Both the position numbers and the translations under genes were made by a program. From Verrucomicrobiia bacterium (GTDB lineage Bacteria > Verrucomicrobiota > Verrucomicrobiia > Limisphaerales > CAIMTB01), in the NCBI GenBank assembly GCA_019634625.1, contig JAHCBA010000006.1, positions 124,001 to 188,000 on the forward strand: a stretch of 64,000 bases of DNA, written 5' to 3'. The notes beneath the pieces are model-generated. The model did no database searches and was not told the origin of the DNA. It was given only the letters and a program-made list of their open reading frames with translations. Shown in pieces: positions 8,999-60,318 of this stretch (position 1 is the stretch's first letter; each line of letters opens with the position of its first letter).

Positions 8999-9006
8999 TT
9001 CGTTTA

Positions 9007-9279
9007 GAGCCTGTCTGAAAACTGGAAGGGGCCCTGTTGTCGCGGAAAAGGCCGGATGGCGAGGCGCGAGGAGGGAGCCTACCCGCCAGCGGTCTGTGAC
9101 CGAGGAGCAACGAAGCCAGCCGGCCATTTCCGCGACAACCCTTCGGGCGGCGGTCCTTTCGGCCTGGGCCTGCGTTGACTCGACCGTTACAGCCCGCTGC
9201 GGGGATGCGCCGGCCTCGCCGCCTTGGCCCAGGCCAAAACCCCTCGTCGCAGGGCCCCTCCCAGTTTTCAGACAGGCTC
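9007..9279. mobile_element. Repeat family B: intact MITE with 30-bp inverted ends and TTA target duplication
   Basis: The left end reads GAGCCTGTCTGAAAACTGG then AAGGGGCCCTG. The complement of the right end is the same with one change (29 of 30). Both ends are flanked by TTA (9004-9006 and 9280-9282). The inside has no transposase ORF. Ends of this type and a TA-centred target resemble IS5-family elements (established family knowledge; not searched). The right TTA is the stop codon of the glycosidase gene that follows. Confidence 0.8.
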
Positions 9280-10863
9280 TTAGGGCCGCAGTTGTTCACC
9301 CGGCGCATTGGGAGTGAAGCGATACACCAGATCGGCCTTGGGCGGTGTGACGGTGAATTCGCCTGCCGAAGCTGAACCCATCGCCGTGACCGTCATCTCC
9401 CAGGGCTCGATCAAGTCCACCTTCCAGGGTCGAGAACCGGCGAGGAGGACGGTCTGCGGCTGCTGGTTCATGGTGTAGAGAAGGGCATACTCGCCGGGCT
9501 TGGAGAGCCACAGCCCGCCCTGGGGAGTCCGGCTTGGTGCCAGTTGATGGAACGGCGGCGCCTGGGCCATGAGATCCTTCAACCATCGGATTCGTGCGGG
9601 GCTTTCGCCGTGCAGCACGCCGCCCTTGGACCACCAGAGAATGTCGTCGGGATGCCGGTAGGTTTCTCCGTGCCCGACATAGCCGCCGGTCATCGTGCCC
9701 AGCCAGAAGCGCCGGACCATTTCCTGCGCGCCCAGCCGGCCCCAGCCCTGCGGGATGTCACCCTCGTAGCCGCATTCGTCCACGATCACCGGTCTGCCAT
9801 ACTGACTGCGCCACTCCAGGGTCCGGACCAGGTCCCCGTGTTGCACGCTCGCATGGGTGACCCAGGGCTTGGCGTGATCGTAGAACCCGCGGCAGTTGTG
9901 AATGCCGCGCAGCCGCTGGTGTGGGTCCTCCGCGTGCAGGATCTGGAAGAACCGGTCCCAGTCGGCCATCGCCTTGTCGCCACGATGCCCGGCCATGGCG
10001 CCCGGGGCCATCAGGTCGTACTCGTTGGCCAGCGACCACCAGACATTGCGGAAGGCGCCCAACCGCGCGATGGCGTAGCGCAGGTAACGGTCGTCGTGGT
10101 CGCGCCCCATCTCCGAGAAGCCCCAATGGTCGTAGGGATGCCACAGGATCAGGTCCGCCTCGATGCCGAGCCGCTGCAGATCGAGGATGCGGCGTTCGAG
10201 ATGCCGCCAGAACGACGGGTCTGGCCGGGTGAAATCGAACCTCCCATCCGCGCCCTTCCGGAAGGCGAACCGTTCGGGCTCGTTCTGGTTGTAGGCGTAT
10301 CTCTTGGGAAACACGCAGAACCGGATCTTGTTGAAAGGCGAAGCCGCCAGCGTTCCCAGGGTCTGCTCCTGCAGCGGTTCGGGCTGGTGGGTCCACACAT
10401 AACAGGTGGTGCCGAACGAATGATGCGGCGTGCCGTCGGCATGGCGGAGGTAATGGGTGTCGAACACCTCGACCGGACCGTGGTTGCCGGGGGCGGGCGC
10501 ATGGACGGTGAAGACCCCGGTCTTCCCCTCGAGTTCCGGCACCGAACCCTGGGTCCGGTACCGCCATTCCCCCATCGTCGGCGGGCTGAAGCGGACCCGG
10601 TAAACGCCGTCGCCGTCCCAGAACCCGGGCACGGTCACCTGTCGGTCGCCCTGGGTGAAGGTGGCGGACCATTGCACTTCGAGGTAGGGATTGCCTGAGT
10701 CGGGGCCGCCGAGGACGACTTCGAAGACACCCCAGCGTTCAGCGGCGCGTACGGACGGCATGAGGCTGGCCAGGAGCAGCGCAGCGGCGAGGACCGACCG
10801 GAGCAGTCCCTGCGGAGGAAACCAACGTCCGGAAGGGGTCGGCGGAACAAGGGAGGGTTTCAT
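9280..10863 (-). CDS. Secreted DUF5060/DUF4038 glycoside-hydrolase-like protein
   Basis: 527 residues. A signal peptide is present (VLAAALLLASLMPSVRAAE, about residues 23-42). An N-terminal beta-sandwich (DUF5060; WGVFEVVLGGPDSGNPY, WDGDGVYRVRFSPP) is followed by a TIM-barrel of the DUF4038/apiosidase-like type with typical stretches (FGTTCYVWTHQ, NKIRFCVFPKRYAYN, ILWHPYDHWG, WWSLANEYDL, VIVDECGYEG). The glutamates in ANEYD and DECGYEG are placed as acid/base and nucleophile in related clans; that assignment is inference. A C-terminal beta-domain closes it (PWKVDLIEPWEMTVTAM). Likely role is hydrolysis of plant-type oligosaccharides outside the cytoplasm. Its TAA stop coincides with the TTA duplication of the family B element. 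Confidence 0.85.
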   Translation of the reverse strand: MKPSLVPPTPSGRWFPPQGLLRSVLAAALLLASLMPSVRAAERWGVFEVVLGGPDSGNPYLEVQWSATFTQGDRQVTVPGFWDGDGVYRVRFSPPTMGEWRYRTQGSVPELEGKTGVFTVHAPAPGNHGPVEVFDTHYLRHADGTPHHSFGTTCYVWTHQPEPLQEQTLGTLAASPFNKIRFCVFPKRYAYNQNEPERFAFRKGADGRFDFTRPDPSFWRHLERRILDLQRLGIEADLILWHPYDHWGFSEMGRDHDDRYLRYAIARLGAFRNVWWSLANEYDLMAPGAMAGHRGDKAMADWDRFFQILHAEDPHQRLRGIHNCRGFYDHAKPWVTHASVQHGDLVRTLEWRSQYGRPVIVDECGYEGDIPQGWGRLGAQEMVRRFWLGTMTGGYVGHGETYRHPDDILWWSKGGVLHGESPARIRWLKDLMAQAPPFHQLAPSRTPQGGLWLSKPGEYALLYTMNQQPQTVLLAGSRPWKVDLIEPWEMTVTAMGSASAGEFTVTPPKADLVYRFTPNAPGEQLRP

Positions 10864-15924: not shown

Positions 15925-16056
15925 CGATCTGAACGGCAGTCTGCCCCACCCTCCCCACCAATCCAAGGCTAAGCCGTATCCATGGAGTCAGGAGGAGGGC
16001 GATGGCGCCGCGGATTCCCGGGCAGGACGAGGCGTGAGCGAGGCGCGGATCGGAAC

Positions 16057-16146
16057 CGGGTTACGGAACGAGCGAACGACGAAGCTCCTGCCCGAAGAGA
16101 TCAAGCCAGCGCGCCCGACCTTGCCGCGTGGCTACGGCTCAGCGCC
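16057..16146 (-). repeat. Repeat family C, copy 1, overlapping a stop codon
   Basis: Read on the minus strand it begins GGCGCTGAGCCGTAGCCA and continues AAGGTCGGGCGCGCTGGCTT, then AGCTTCGTCGTTCGCTCGTT. It matches the 43.1 kb copy closely. Its first bases encode the last residues of the GH28 gene and supply its TAG stop. Confidence 0.75.
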
Positions 16147-17508
16147 TTCCACCGCGTCCACCCCTTCGATCCGCCACGGCCGGCTGTTGTCCGGTACGGC
16201 GGTCAGTCCCTCGATCCGCACCCGATGGCCGTGCCGGACCTGGAGGACCGGCTGGGCGCCGCTGTTGGCCAGGCGCACATCGCGGAGGGTCAGCGTGTCG
16301 AACCGGTCGACGTCGAGCACCGGTTGATCGAGGTGGGCCCCGTGCAGCGACAGGGAAACGTTCTCCAGGGTCAGTTGAAACTGACGTCCGGCGTCGCCCA
16401 CCACACGGGTGGTGCGCGCAAGCCGGGTCGCCCGGATGTTCCTGAAGTGGAGCCGGCGCGCCGGCTGGCCCTGCATCCAGCCCCCGCGCTCGAAGTCGTA
16501 CAAATACAGCGCCTCCGCCCGGTCCACCGTCAGGTTCTCAATGAGCCAGTCGTCGCTCGGCCGCTGGGGATGGCGGTCGCGCGGGGCAAAATGGACGAAG
16601 GCGCCCAGCATGTTGGTCCGGCCGCTGATCTTGTGCTCGTACTCGCCCGGCCCCCACAGGTGGCAGTCCCGGACAACCAGTCGCTCGCACCCCAGGCGAA
16701 ACCCGTTGCAGGACGAGTTGATCCGGCAGTTGAGGATCTCGAAGTCCGCGTTGTCGCACCCGGCAAACCCGTCGTCGCCCGTCCGGAAATCGCAATCCAC
16801 CACCCGGAATCGTTCACAGCGCTGGGTGTGCAGGGCGTCGTGGCCGCCCCGCACCCTGACGCCTGCCACAACGGCATCGCGGCAGTCGAAGCACATCAGG
16901 GCATAATTCCCGGCGCGCCGGACCGTGATGTCGCGGATCGAAATGTCGCGGCAGTTCCGCAGCACCAGGGCGTGCGGCCCGCGGAACCCCTCCTCCCCCT
17001 GCGGACGGGTGCAGTCCACACCATCGATCGTGCCCGGCCCGTCGATGCGGATATTCGTCGCGTCCAACGCGGTCAGCAGCGCATTGGACCATTCGCCGTC
17101 GCCCCATTGCCTCCGGCCGCCGGACCCGTCGCCGAACGCCGGGTAGTCCTGCCAGTCGTCCGACCCCTGAAGAATGGCGCCCTCCTCGAGATGCAGGCGC
17201 ACATTCGATTTCAGCAGGAGGGCGCCGGTGCGGAAACGTCCCGGCGGCACGCGCACCGTTCCGCCGCCGGCCGCGTGACAGGCATCCAGGGCGGCCTGAA
17301 TCGCGACGGTGTTCCGGTCGCTCCGGTGAGTCCGCGCACCGCGATCCGTGATGCGCACGTCGAGGCCCTGAGCCGATCGGGGCTCGGCTCGCAGTTCGAA
17401 CCGCGAACCCAGGACCGGGATGGACGCGGCAGCGAAACCGAGACGTCGCAGGAATTCGCGTCGAGGGGTTCGGCCGGCGGGGCAGGGCAGGGAAGGCATG
17501 GCTTTCAT
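16132..17508 (-). CDS. Tat-exported GH28 polygalacturonase-like beta-helix protein
   Basis: 458 residues. A twin-arginine signal is seen (RREFLRRLGFAAASIPVLG). A typical beta-helix start follows (NTVAIQAALDACHAAGGGTV, RVPPGRFRTGALLLKSNVRL), then GPGTIDG and the strand series NCRDISIRDITVRR. TGDDGFAG matches the family's catalytic Asp-Asp motif, and further helical turns follow (DCHLWGPGEYEHKISGRTNM). Length fits GH28. Probable role: extracytoplasmic hydrolysis of pectin or another uronic or rhamno-polysaccharide; specificity cannot be read. The stop codon and the last three residues lie inside repeat C, so the original C-terminus may have differed. Confidence 0.85.
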   Translation of the reverse strand: MKAMPSLPCPAGRTPRREFLRRLGFAAASIPVLGSRFELRAEPRSAQGLDVRITDRGARTHRSDRNTVAIQAALDACHAAGGGTVRVPPGRFRTGALLLKSNVRLHLEEGAILQGSDDWQDYPAFGDGSGGRRQWGDGEWSNALLTALDATNIRIDGPGTIDGVDCTRPQGEEGFRGPHALVLRNCRDISIRDITVRRAGNYALMCFDCRDAVVAGVRVRGGHDALHTQRCERFRVVDCDFRTGDDGFAGCDNADFEILNCRINSSCNGFRLGCERLVVRDCHLWGPGEYEHKISGRTNMLGAFVHFAPRDRHPQRPSDDWLIENLTVDRAEALYLYDFERGGWMQGQPARRLHFRNIRATRLARTTRVVGDAGRQFQLTLENVSLSLHGAHLDQPVLDVDRFDTLTLRDVRLANSGAQPVLQVRHGHRVRIEGLTAVPDNSRPWRIEGVDAVEGAEP

Positions 17509-41879: not shown

Positions 41880-41933
41880 GCGGGACCGCATCCTCCCCCC
41901 GCCGTCCCCGCCTGTCTTGCAGAAAAATGCGGC

Positions 41934-42278
41934 CCTGCCGTGGACGGGGTCACGTGGAGGGTCCTGGGTCCCGCCGAACCCGGGCCGCAGCCAATGGGAA
42001 CGGGAGGGGAGATGGCGTGGTGGCGGAGCGAGGACGAGGGGCGCACCTGGCGGCCTGCGCGAAGGGTGACCTCGGACAGCGCGTTCAACCACGCGTATGC
42101 GCGCCGGCCCTTGCACGTCCGCGAGCCGTTCGTCGGCTTCTGGGCCGACGGGGACCCGCGGACGTTCGGGCCTTCCCGGCTGTACTTCACCGATGGCCGG
42201 GGCGAGCGGGTATGGCGGCTGCCCGATCCGATGTCCGACGAACGCCAGGTGCCGGAGCGGTGGCCGCCGGGCCGGTGA
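41934..42278 (+). pseudogene. 3' remnant of a BNR_4-type repeat protein
   Basis: About 112 codons in one frame match the C-terminus of BNR_4-like proteins: EMAWWRSEDEGRTWRPARRV, then AYARRPLHVREPFVGFWADG, PSRLYFTDGRGERVWRLPDP, and a stop. There is no start codon, signal peptide or upstream propeller, because the divergent esterase gene begins where the rest should be. I read it as the tail of a deleted gene. An overlapping frame from 41927 is a shadow of the methyltransferase gene. Confidence 0.7.
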
Positions 42279-42322
42279 CGATTCCGTTGCAGGGGCGGTG
42301 TCGGGTGGGACACCGTCGCGCT

Positions 42323-43081
42323 GTGAACTGGAAGAAGCGTTGTCGCGGCACCCTGGCGTGGGCGGTTCCTGGCGGACTGGCGGCGTGTCTCCTGACGGGG
42401 GTGCTGACCGGCGGTTGCCTGGCCGGAAGGAACGGCGTCCCGGCATTGGAGGAAGCGGTCAGTGTCAAGCCCGGCATCAACCGTGAGTTCCTGAACCCGG
42501 ACTTGCAGGTGGCGAACTGGGTCCAGCGGTTCGAGGTCGAGAGTCGGGAGGTTTTCGCGCACCGGCATGGATTGACCCATGCGCTGGGTTTGCGGCCGGG
42601 GGACTGCGTGGCCGACATCGGGGCGGGGACGGGGTTGTTCGTGCCGCTCTTTGCCGAGGCGGTGGGGCCGCAGGGGCATGTGTACGCCGTGGAGATTGCG
42701 CCCGCCTTTGTGGAAGGGATCCTGAACCGGGCGCGGGAGGCGGGCCTGGCCAACGTGACGGCGGTGCTGGGTTCCGATCGCGACGTCGGGCTGGAGCCGG
42801 GATCGATCGACAAGGCGTTCATCTGCGACACCTACCATCATTTCGAGTACCCGTCGGAGACGATGGTCTCACTGCATCGTGCGCTGCGGCGCGGGGGCGA
42901 GGTGCTGGTGATCGACTTCCATCGGATCCCGGGTGTGAGTTCGGAGTGGACGCTCAACCACGTGCGCGCCGGGCAGGAGGTCTTCACTGCCGAGATCGAG
43001 GCGGCCGGATTTCGGAAGGTCGAGGAACTGCCGTTGCTGGAGGACAACTACGTGCTGCGGTTCCGGAAGGTGGGGCGCTGA
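42323..43081 (+). CDS. Lipoprotein-anchored SAM-dependent methyltransferase
   Basis: 252 residues from a GTG at 42323 (codons GTGAACTGG). The N-terminus has a basic start, a hydrophobic stretch and a lipobox ending at a cysteine (LTGVLTGGC), so the product should be a lipoprotein outside the cytoplasm. The body is a complete class I methyltransferase: motif I VADIGAGTGLFVPLF, acidic residue in VYAVEIAPAFVEGIL, motif IV-like KAFICDTYHHFEYP, and GEVLVIDFHRIPGVSS. SAM is normally cytoplasmic, so either an unusual site or a false lipobox is implied. The stop codon TGA falls at the edge of repeat C. No pathway is evident. Confidence 0.82.
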   Translation: MNWKKRCRGTLAWAVPGGLAACLLTGVLTGGCLAGRNGVPALEEAVSVKPGINREFLNPDLQVANWVQRFEVESREVFAHRHGLTHALGLRPGDCVADIGAGTGLFVPLFAEAVGPQGHVYAVEIAPAFVEGILNRAREAGLANVTAVLGSDRDVGLEPGSIDKAFICDTYHHFEYPSETMVSLHRALRRGGEVLVIDFHRIPGVSSEWTLNHVRAGQEVFTAEIEAAGFRKVEELPLLEDNYVLRFRKVGR

Positions 43082-43160
43082 GCCGTAGCCATGCAGCAAG
43101 GTCGGGCGTGCTGGCTTGATCCTTTCGGGCAAGAGCTTCGTCGTTCGCTCGTTCCGTATC
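43074..43160 (+). repeat. Repeat family C, copy 2, overlapping a stop codon
   Basis: It begins GCGCTGAGCCGTAGCCATGC, continues AGCAAGGTCGGGCGTGCTGG and AAGAGCTTCGTCGTTCGCTC. The TGA at its left edge is the stop codon of the lipoprotein methyltransferase gene. Confidence 0.75.
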
Positions 43161-43231
43161 CCGAGTCCGGGGTGGATGGCAGAATTGGCTTTGCGCCGGA
43201 GGCGGGGTTTGCCTCCCAATTCGGGGGTCCG

Positions 43232-44536
43232 ATGAAAGACCTTGTGCCGCCTCCGCCTCCGCTGGTTCGCAATGTGCATGCGGAGGTCCGGGAATTGTTC
43301 AACCGCTACGTGGTGCCCAGCTACGGTCGTTTCGAGCTGGCGCTGGCGCGCGGTCAGGGGAGCCATGTGTGGGACGTGGGAGGGCGGCGTTACCTGGACA
43401 TGGGCGGGGGCATCGCGGTGTGTTCGCTGGGGCATTGTCATCCGGCCATCACGGAGGCGCTGGTAGGGCAGTCCGGGCGGCTGATCCACGTCTCGAATCT
43501 GTACTACCACGAGCCGCAGGGACGGCTGGCGGAGCGGATTGTGCGGCACCTGGCGCCGGGGAAGGTGTTCTTCTCGAACTCCGGGGCGGAGGCGAACGAG
43601 GGGTTGTACAAACTGGCGCGGAAATTCGGGCACGAGGAGGGCCGGTTCGAGATCCTGACGGCGACCCATTCGTTCCATGGCCGGACCCTGGCGGGCATCG
43701 CGGCCACCGGGCAGGAGAAGGTGAAGCAGGGGTTCGGGCCGGCGGTGACGGGGTTCCGCCATGTGCCCTACAACGATCTCGACGCCGTGCGCGAGGCGTT
43801 GTCGCCGGCGACGGTGGCCATTCTCATCGAAGGGATCCAGGGCGAGGGCGGGATCACGCCGGCGGCACCGGAGTACCTGCTCGGACTGCGGCGGCTCTGT
43901 GATGAACGGCGGATGCTGCTGCTGATCGACGCGGTGCAGTGCGGGCATTTCCGGTCGGGCCGGTTTCAGAGTTTTCAACGGCTCCTTGAGGGGGTGCCCG
44001 GGGCCGAGGGGTTTGTGCCGGACGGTGTCTCGATGGCGAAGTCGCTCGGGGGCGGGTTTCCGATCGGGGCGTTCTGGGTGCGGGACCGGGCGCACGGCAT
44101 GGCGCTGTGCGACGTGCTGGGCCCGGGGAGCCATGCGACGACGTTCGGGGGGACGCCGTTGGGCTGTGCGGTGGCGTTGAAGGTGTTCGAGGTCATCGAG
44201 CGCGAGGATCTCGCCGGGAACGTGCGGCAACTGGGCGACTGGATGCGGGCCGAACTTGAGGGACTGGTCGAGGCGTACCCGCATGTGGTGCGGTCGGCGC
44301 GGGGGGTGGGGTTCATGCTGGGCATCGAGTTTCAGCCGAAGGACGGGATTCCCGGAATGCGGGAGGGGGACCGTGCGGCGTCGCTTCAGGCGGTGCAGCG
44401 GTTGCAGGAGGCCGGGGTCCTGACGATTCCCAGCGGCACCCAGGTGGTGCGGCTGCTGCCGCCCTTGAATCTGGGCCGGGCGGAGGCGGAGGAGGCCATC
44501 GAGGCCATCGGGCGGTTGGTGCGGGACGTCGCGTGA
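43232..44536 (+). CDS. argD: Class III aminotransferase, probable acetylornithine aminotransferase
   Basis: 434 residues from the ATG at 43232; the open frame upstream is repeat C. It is a PLP-dependent fold-type I enzyme: YLDMGGGIAVCSLGHCHP, FFSNSGAEANEGLYKLARKF, THSFHGRTLAGIAATGQEK, IEGIQGEGGITPAA, and the Schiff-base lysine in VSMAKSLGGGFPIGAF. The usual DEVQ motif reads DAVQCG here, with a lineage insert (SGRFQSFQRLLEGVPGAE) before the lysine. Likely role is conversion of N-acetylglutamate semialdehyde to acetylornithine in arginine synthesis; other class III substrates (GABA, ornithine) are possible. The TGA stop overlaps a GTG in the recN frame, so the genes are tightly linked. Confidence 0.85.
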   Translation: MKDLVPPPPPLVRNVHAEVRELFNRYVVPSYGRFELALARGQGSHVWDVGGRRYLDMGGGIAVCSLGHCHPAITEALVGQSGRLIHVSNLYYHEPQGRLAERIVRHLAPGKVFFSNSGAEANEGLYKLARKFGHEEGRFEILTATHSFHGRTLAGIAATGQEKVKQGFGPAVTGFRHVPYNDLDAVREALSPATVAILIEGIQGEGGITPAAPEYLLGLRRLCDERRMLLLIDAVQCGHFRSGRFQSFQRLLEGVPGAEGFVPDGVSMAKSLGGGFPIGAFWVRDRAHGMALCDVLGPGSHATTFGGTPLGCAVALKVFEVIEREDLAGNVRQLGDWMRAELEGLVEAYPHVVRSARGVGFMLGIEFQPKDGIPGMREGDRAASLQAVQRLQEAGVLTIPSGTQVVRLLPPLNLGRAEAEEAIEAIGRLVRDVA

Positions 44537-47921: not shown

Positions 47922-47975
47922 GCGGAGGAAGAGCCTCGCCGCAGGGCGGCGGTAAACCAAGTCCGGGATGCGAGG

Positions 47976-48083
47976 GCTGAAGCCTGAGGCCTGAGGCCTG
48001 AAGCCTGAAGTCTGAAACCTGAAACCTGAAGCCTGAAACCTGAAGCCTGAAACCTGAAACCTGAGGCCTGAGGCCTGAGGTCC
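47976..48083. repeat. Heptanucleotide tandem array (CTGARRC, about 15 units)
   Basis: Unbroken 7-bp units CTGAAGC, CTGAGGC, CTGAAAC and CTGAAGT run for about 108 bp, close to the start of the FAH gene. Units differ mainly at the purines and the last base. Read on the minus strand it would encode a Phe/Arg/Gln/Ala/Ser/Gly-rich repeat, but no start or signal supports translation. Confidence 0.85.
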
Positions 48084-48233
48084 AGTTTCCGTACGGAATG
48101 GGAGGTCCGGGCAGGATCGAACCCATCGGGCCAATCCTGAGGCGGCGATCGAAAGGGTGTGTCTGCGGGTTCGAGTCCGAGTCCCCACGAGGGGTGGCTT
48201 GCCAGACGGCGGTCGAGGTGGTGCGCTGGAGGC

Positions 48234-59219: not shown

Positions 59220-59287
59220 CCTTGGCCGCAGCCATGCCGTAAGTTCGGGGGCGCAGGGTTGATCTTTTCGGGCAAGAGCTTCGTCGT
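59220..59287 (+). repeat. Repeat family C, copy 3 (short, diverged)
   Basis: It aligns with copies 1 and 2 over GGCCGCAGCCATGCCGTAAG, GGGTTGATCTTTTCGGGCAA and GAGCTTCGTCGT. It ends exactly where the CTA stop of the DUF1080 gene begins. Confidence 0.65.
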
Positions 59288-59980
59288 CTAGGGGAGCGGC
59301 GTGATGTGGAGATGGCGGAAGTGGATTTCACCGCCTTCGGATTGGAGGGCAACGGGTCCTGAGAGCACTTCGACACCGGTGACCCGGTTCACCTCGACAC
59401 CATTGATCCAGACCGTGTAGTTGGGACCCTCAGCAAGGATCTCGACGCGGTTCCACGAGCCGGGCGGCGCTTCGGCGTCGGTGGTCTTGCGGACGCCGTC
59501 AATGTCTCCGGCGAGAGGATGTGCGGCCACGTGGAAATGGCGGGGTTGATCCGGGGCGATGCGACGTCCTTGCAGCCCCAGCACATCGCCGGCGTTGCCG
59601 TGCATCAACTGGACTTCGACGCAGCGGGGGAGTGGCCTGGGGTCGCCGTCGAGTCGCGAGAAGAGACCGCTGTTTCCGGGGGGCGTGCCAGGAGCCCACC
59701 GGTATTCCGCCTCCATGCGGAAGTTGGTGAAGTTGCGGTCGGTTTGGAGATACCCGATGGGTTCACCGCGACAGACGAGGATCCCGTCGCGGAGGGTCCA
59801 GACGGCATCGCCGCGGACGGCGGGATCTCCAGTGACGGCGGTCCACCCTTGGAGATCCCGTCCGTTGAAGAGGCTGATGGGTTGGGCGGGACCGGAGTTT
59901 GGCCCGGTTGAGCAGGAGCCGAGGAGTGCGACCAGCGCGGCCAGTGCCGGTCCCATACGAAGGGCGAATCGGGATTGCAT
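59288..59980 (-). CDS. Lipoprotein with DUF1080 (3-keto-disaccharide hydrolase) domain
   Basis: 230 residues from the ATG at 59980; the frame beyond is non-coding. A lipobox is seen (ALVALLGSCS). The DUF1080 jelly-roll is clear: ISLFNGRDLQGWTAV, WTLRDGILVCRGEPIGYLQT, FTNFRMEAEYRWAPGTPPGN, SGLFSRLDGDPRPLPRCVEV, and the closing GPVALQSEGGEIHFRHLHIT. The domain acts on or binds 3-keto-disaccharides or glycosides in PVC and Bacteroidota sugar pathways; activity here is inferred. It should be anchored in the outer or inner membrane by the lipid. Its TAG stop abuts repeat C copy 3. Confidence 0.9.
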   Translation of the reverse strand: MQSRFALRMGPALAALVALLGSCSTGPNSGPAQPISLFNGRDLQGWTAVTGDPAVRGDAVWTLRDGILVCRGEPIGYLQTDRNFTNFRMEAEYRWAPGTPPGNSGLFSRLDGDPRPLPRCVEVQLMHGNAGDVLGLQGRRIAPDQPRHFHVAAHPLAGDIDGVRKTTDAEAPPGSWNRVEILAEGPNYTVWINGVEVNRVTGVEVLSGPVALQSEGGEIHFRHLHITPLP

Positions 59981-60189
59981 CGCGGCCAACCCAAGCGGGC
60001 CGCAGAAGTCGTGTCCAGAACACAGGGGCGATGGATGGGCACGGGGATCCTCGGAAGTGTTGCTCCTCGACCCGTCGGCCAAAATCACGTCGGCCAAATA
60101 CTTGTTGACCCACTCTCGGGCCGGGCCGTCTCGATCCCGGGCAGAAACATAATCGGATGGCGACGGTGGATCCTCCCACAAGCCCGCCC

Positions 60190-60245
60190 CCCCTGGCCGC
60201 CCCCCCTGGCCGCACTCCCTGGCCGCACTCCCTGGCCGCACTCCC
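60190..60245. repeat. 13-bp tandem repeat (about four units)
   Basis: Units of the form CTGGCCGCACTCC occur with TGGCCGC at 60194, 60207, 60220 and 60233, exactly 13 bp apart; the fifth is degenerate. Confidence 0.75.
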
Positions 60246-60318
60246 CAGTCGCCGTCCACCCGCGGGAGAGCATTCCGCAGCGAGGGAAGGGGACGGGGGG
60301 TGGGATGGAGAGAACGCC

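Follow-up and report, generated by a model that had tools for sequence, protein, structure and literature searches.

Family C, a probable MITE of a Verrucomicrobiia genome that lands at CTNAG and often touches gene stop codons

Introduction

A 64,000-nucleotide stretch of Verrucomicrobiia DNA, hereafter the window, carries three copies of an interspersed repeat, family C, each overlapping or touching the stop codon of a gene. The locus raises the question of how a repeat comes to lie at gene ends: it could have arrived there, it could have replaced the original 3′ ends, or it could serve as a portable 3′-UTR or terminator-like element, as a sequence-only reading of the window had suggested. 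Here we describe the size, target, distribution and folding of family C, and weigh these possibilities against one another.

The three copies in the window

All three stop-codon contacts put forward by the sequence-only reading exist in the sequence and its open reading frames (ORFs). The features concerned are as follows.

15972-16139, minus strand: copy 1, a full but decayed 168-bp core (alignment, end pairing)
16132-16134, minus strand: TAG with which the GH28-like gene stops, located within the left end of copy 1 (ORF)
16132-17508, minus strand: GH28/pectate-lyase-like beta-helix gene (weak Pfam matches), its last residues coming from copy 1
42323-43081, plus strand: SAM-dependent methyltransferase gene, start uncertain (Pfam Methyltransf_31/11/25)
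43077-43081, plus strand: target word CTGAG at the outer left end of copy 2, with TGA 43079-43081 as the methyltransferase stop
about 43081-43169, plus strand: copy 2, left half (AGCCGTAGCCATGCAGCAAGG...), right half missing (alignments)
43091-44536, plus strand: acetylornithine-type aminotransferase ORF (NCBIfam argD from residue 73 on)
about 59224-59287, plus strand: copy 3, truncated left part with outer end CTTGGCCGCAGCC and a broken inner edge (alignments)
59288-59290, minus strand: TAG stop of the DUF1080 gene (CTA at 59288-59290), abutting the inner edge of copy 3 at base 59287
59288-60259, minus strand: DUF1080 ORF

The repeats are real, but the unit is larger than the 87 bases assigned to it and belongs to a 168-bp element. 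Copy 1, which had been placed at 16057-16146, does contact the stop codon, although only its left half had been seen. Copies 1 and 2 match at 91% over 96 bases in inverted orientation. The core of copy 2 begins at the A of the methyltransferase TGA (43079-43081), with which the mechanical ORF of that gene (41927-43081) ends, and the GH28-like ORF ends in GCT GAG CCG TAG, the TAG lying within copy 1. The idea that two frames use the same repeat edge does not hold; these are two separate stops, a TGA in the target word at copy 2 and a TAG seven bases inside the element at copy 1, which probably altered the end of the GH28 protein by a few residues. Copy 1 is flanked by CTAAG on its low side and CTCAG on its high side, with unequal middle bases. 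The TAG of the DUF1080 gene abuts copy 3 as described, but it does so at a broken inner edge and not at an element end, and this contact is different in kind. All three window copies are decayed or short of one arm.

The mechanical ORF of the aminotransferase starts inside copy 2. In each of the four same-genus genomes it has homologues whose alignment begins no earlier than residue 28-61, and its true start is likely near 43225.

Structure and identity of family C

In BLAST searches of the window's genome (G000), copy 2 gave at least 39 matches with E ≤ 0.001, with 40 of 61 candidates scored, and a full copy gave at least 54 matches, dispersed over many contigs, with 40 of 69 candidates scored. 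A 21-base end pattern, allowing up to 3 mismatches, matched this genome 72 times, compared to 2 times with the pattern reversed. Similarity of this extent greatly exceeds what chance would produce. Altogether, 59 full or partial copies were recognised, of which 43 have one recognised end only and many are merely 20-30 bases long. Most full copies, in three genomes, share a core of 168 bp (AGCC...GGCT), and its two arms match each other imperfectly as inverted repeats over nearly the whole length; when full copies are aligned with their flanks, the left end reads AGCCGTAGCCATGCAGCAAGG and the inverted right end reads AGCCGTATCCATGCAGTAAGG. Family C therefore shows the features expected of a MITE, namely terminal inverted repeats, a short unit free of a transposase, many dispersed copies and, as described below, a duplicated target. 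We conclude that it is very probably a non-autonomous, non-coding MITE with a 168-bp core and long terminal inverted repeats, which inserts at the word CTNAG.

Two further repeats accompany family C. A second MITE of about 275 bp (window 9006-9280) has the ends AGAGCCTGTCTGAAAA and mostly follows CTN; at L028, L068 and L069, and at L095 and L096 of the same-genus genome G003, it and a family C end lie back to back and share one CTNAG. Such back-to-back ends make up 4/16 in G000 (by a loose rule, three of them clear) and 2/2 in G003. Tandem landing is expected, since each insertion remakes the target. A third repeat family of about 160 nt (CGGTGCATCCCGGAGTTGTGGGTGAGGAGGCAGCGAATCG...) has several copies on both strands and outnumbers family C in the window.

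window 3780, 8224, 18554, 24326, 36866, 40511, 49134 and 51801, both strands: copies of the third repeat family

The window also holds a 7/14 nt tandem repeat (CTGAAGC / CTGAAAC) at 47963-48095.

The CTNAG target

Both ends of family C sit in CTNAG, that is, CTGAG, CTAAG, CTTAG or CTCAG, and one strand or the other of this word holds TGA, TAA or TAG, the last being read one base on (T-TAG). Because the target spells stop codons, a gene can end exactly inside it. The middle base N is equal at both ends in 37 of the 42 two-ended copies from four genomes (G000 14/17, G003 10/10, G307 8/8, G310 5/7), where the chance of equality is 0.28-0.45 per genome. This equality is the mark of a target duplication, whose length could be 1, 3 or 5 bases. 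Deviations from CTNAG in the 42 copies number 17 in the outer half and 6 in the inner half, an excess not expected from a simple 5-bp duplication.

Stop-codon contacts across genomes

A copy was counted as lying exactly at a stop on the basis of genes called by our own codon-usage model, which was trained on the fetched sequence and was also applied to the controls; genes with a score of 15 or less or with fewer than 60 codons were omitted, which removed one locus (L009). In G000, 19/59 copies lie exactly at a stop, compared to 17/129 non-coding, element-free CTNAG controls (Fisher p = 0.0025), an excess of about 2.4-fold. In G003 the corresponding counts are 5/15 and 3/31 (p 0.06). No excess appears in G307 (0/10 vs 2/22) or G310 (2/11 vs 3/16), for which 8 and 9 loci were fetched, of 18 and 97 end matches. 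The counter-possibility named in the sequence-only reading, that the majority of copies would be distant from stop codons, applies in part: of the 59 copies in G000, 40 do not coincide with a stop, but 19 do. Among 75 element ends in G000, the stop of the inward-reading gene is the TNA of the target in 13 and TTAG one base on in 7; an in-element CCGTAG stop at +7 is used in 5, copy 1 included, and in 2 the stop lies at +18.

The proposal that the repeat arrived at gene 3′ ends is supported, as its insertion word CTNAG frequently forms a stop codon. The target word by itself accounts for some of the contacts, and the further excess in G000 may arise because insertions into promoters and genes are selected against. 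A preference of the element for stops beyond CTNAG and purifying selection is rather unlikely in our judgement; for example, the transposase or the hairpin DNA would recognise gene 3′ ends, and the covarying full-length palindrome would be kept because it acts there.

Are the stop codons native?

For copy 2, the methyltransferase orthologues in three same-genus genomes (L113, L114, and L115) terminate at the same residue with no element at that place, the C-termini being FRKVAH* in G002, FRKIGR* in G003, FRKVGR* in G004 and FRKVGR* in the window. The stop at copy 2 is thus native on the evidence of these alignments, and the suggestion that the repeat replaced the gene end does not apply there. 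The site of copy 2 is not cleanly empty in the element-free orthologues, as the downstream gene differs. In G002, G003 and G004, a transporter-like gene lies within about 20 nt past the methyltransferase, where the window has the aminotransferase; the fetched loci of G000 do not contain the one that follows the G003 methyltransferase. The half element, lying in the interval 43081-43225, may mark a rearrangement point.

In 11 further genes that stop exactly at a copy, family models run to within the last 0-9 profile positions, and for four of these the reach is as follows.

GyrA: profile positions 2-797 of 798
Dxs: 3-614 of 616
HisJ-like: 5-267 of 269
RlmI-like: 18-395 of 396

The others are MarC-type, PIN toxin, DUF6807, LysR, CysE/EpsC-like, DivIC and PPIase genes. 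Including the methyltransferase, 12/19 exact-stop genes look complete; in the remaining 7/19 the family matches are weak, partial or absent, two genes (L072 and L067:3839-4669) having been searched with Pfam only. One of the 4 stretches found by the pattern, an independent contig from Verrucomicrobia (L108), has an element end that coincides exactly with the TGA of an HpnD gene, and this gene is complete to profile position 265/267. These comparisons suggest that the stops at the contacts are mostly native.

Hairpin structure and alternative explanations

Copy 2 folds with a z-score of +0.30 against shuffles, that is, with no structure above chance, and the hairpin of copy 1 is hardly better than its shuffles (z -0.55). 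No intrinsic terminator (a GC-rich hairpin followed by a T-run) was found at copies 1 and 2, a promoter scan of both returned nothing, and Rfam gave no match at gathering score in the whole window; the notion of a portable terminator is not borne out at these copies. An intact copy (L014) folds end to end at -74.1 kcal/mol (z -5.87). In an alignment of 30 two-ended copies of G000, G003 and G307 (without L025 and L073 of G000 and L168, L170, and L171 of G307), double changes occur in 17/56 pairs, a number reached in 0/500 shuffles. Mismatched cells comprise 80 G-U and 99 A-C, in 16 and 23 columns, respectively, with no clear asymmetry, although the right-first strand has the lower z-score in 29/30 copies. 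Near-equal frequencies of G-U and A-C mismatches give no clear sign of RNA-strand-specific selection and would point instead to upkeep of the palindrome at the DNA level, which is what the covariation looks like. As a separate observation, full copies, among them the one on the plus strand of L014 (2922-3089), contain AAGGAGG and then ATG in the right arm read inward. The ATG opens an ORF of 11 codons (by eye, M A P Q I F G Q D E E stop); this ribosome-site-like start could affect neighbouring genes.

The end-to-end hairpin could in principle have been co-opted as a portable 3′-UTR, kept at stops so that the RNA ends or stabilises transcripts, and a role of this kind has been suggested for the pneumococcal SPRITE (PMC3049150). 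The end-to-end folding of intact copies, the doubly changed pairs and the stop-codon excess in G000 would all fit it. However, 12/19 on-stop copies have one recognised end only, and one end cannot form an end-to-end stem; copies 1 and 2 gave no terminator match, the mismatches show no clear sign of RNA-strand selection, and inverted-repeat termini recognised by a transposase covary too. We therefore hold a co-opted 3′-UTR to be very unlikely. Truncation of genes by family C, with the element supplying a new stop, draws on copy 1 and the four other ends whose stop lies at +7 inside the element. It predicts a random spread over frames, whereas 20/75 ends have the stop at 0 or +1, compared to 5 at +7 and 2 at +18, and most exact-stop genes look complete; as a general explanation it is likewise very unlikely.

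GTAG-type REP elements are defined by a GTAG tag retained at one end. That family C is a short functional motif or REP-like gene-end repeat, with no transposon behind it, might be read from the copies that are 20-30-base ends directly past stops (Dxs, RlmI) and from the GTAG in the left end in G000. The tag is not kept, since the right end has GTAT and G003 has GGAA, and a paired-end 168-bp unit with matching flanks recurs in three genomes, which makes this reading extremely improbable. The insertion of a MITE at CTNAG accordingly remains our preferred explanation.

Distribution and candidate mobiliser

A full-copy search of 58 genomes, including the window's own, matched five, namely the own genome, G003 strongly (14 of 28 candidates scored), and G038, G016 and G057 weakly; no match was found in the same-genus genomes G001, G002 and G004. 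Allowing up to 2 mismatches, the end pattern is present in 21/320 searched genomes of the order, with 97 matches in G310 and 18 in G307, and the G310 unit measures 284-292 bp with a different interior. Several G003 contigs (L100-L103) have a terminus that lies within a family C copy or at its margin. As the repeats break assemblies, the G003 copy number is probably above the count.

Family C is probably mobilised in trans by a transposase of the IS1380 type, as suggested by one decayed candidate from another family of the order (L217, in G117). Its inward-facing ends at 756 and 2408 are both flanked by CTCAG and enclose a 419-aa transposase, which scores 170.2 bits with the NCBIfam IS1380 model, just under the cut-off of 180; the end-pair score is 36, barely above the 35 that 30 shuffles of 44 loci reached at most. 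This locus was found among the PF01609 loci of nine genomes, mostly new (30 checked and 20 more). The 8 PF01609 loci of G000 and G003 include no autonomous partner with family C ends. An origin from the PF13340 group of the IS5 family was rejected, because the 6 PF13340 loci, found in 3 of nine genomes, have no family C ends. Two ends separated by 1.8 kb on contig C20 (L067) were also discarded as a transposon, since they span ordinary genes, including an ORF that we take to be alanine-dehydrogenase-like.

Proposed mechanism and comparison with known systems

In the proposed mechanism, family C inserts at CTNAG and leaves the same middle base at both ends, as the two-ended copies show. Where the target lies at a gene end, CTNAG is remade on insertion, so that the stop is kept and the protein is unchanged; the orthologues show this at copy 2, and family models matched to their full length suggest it for other genes. 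Copies in gene bodies would be lost, while those at stops and in intergenic DNA would survive, and some would later decay or lose an arm, as in all three window copies; mobilisation in trans would be provided by an IS1380-type transposase. A landing word that holds a stop and is remade would give a concrete reason for small mobile elements to gather at gene ends. The family C end type could also serve as a marker of repeat-driven genome change and of annotation errors, that is, ORFs that start or end inside repeats.

The excerpts available of the open-licence literature contain no description of family C or of a CTNAG target that would explain it. Family C is a new MITE family, while stop-providing repeats are already known from pneumococcus. 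There, according to PMC3049150, 58 CDSs overlap BOX; in 36 of these BOX lies at the very 3′ end and supplies the stop codon, and the study found no strong evidence that genes had been truncated. The pneumococcal BOX, RUP and SPRITE are small interspersed repeats like family C (PMC3049150), with the difference that in family C the target word itself holds the stop; this likeness is one of type, the sequences not having been aligned mutually. Fusions of MITEs to gene ends are known in enterobacteria and Coxiella, where ERIC/RU-1, YPAL/RU-2 and QMITE2, inverted-repeat MITEs as is family C, are described in PMC2759123, PMC2229807 and PMC5896051 as duplicating TA or varied sites and often extending the ORF, whereas the gene affected by family C mostly stops in the target. 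For the IS1380 family, Table 2 of PMC3281130 lists IS1247 with inverted repeats of 16/13 and a 5 bp duplication. The L217 candidate has ends of similar type with CTCAG on both sides, but it is decayed and below the curated cut-off, and no IS1380 parent was found in the own genome. ISPsp10, of the IS5/IS427 group, offers a further parallel (PMC4133298): it lands at a stop-containing target that gives the stop, like family C, but there the transposase gene borrows the stop, whereas with family C the host gene keeps its own.
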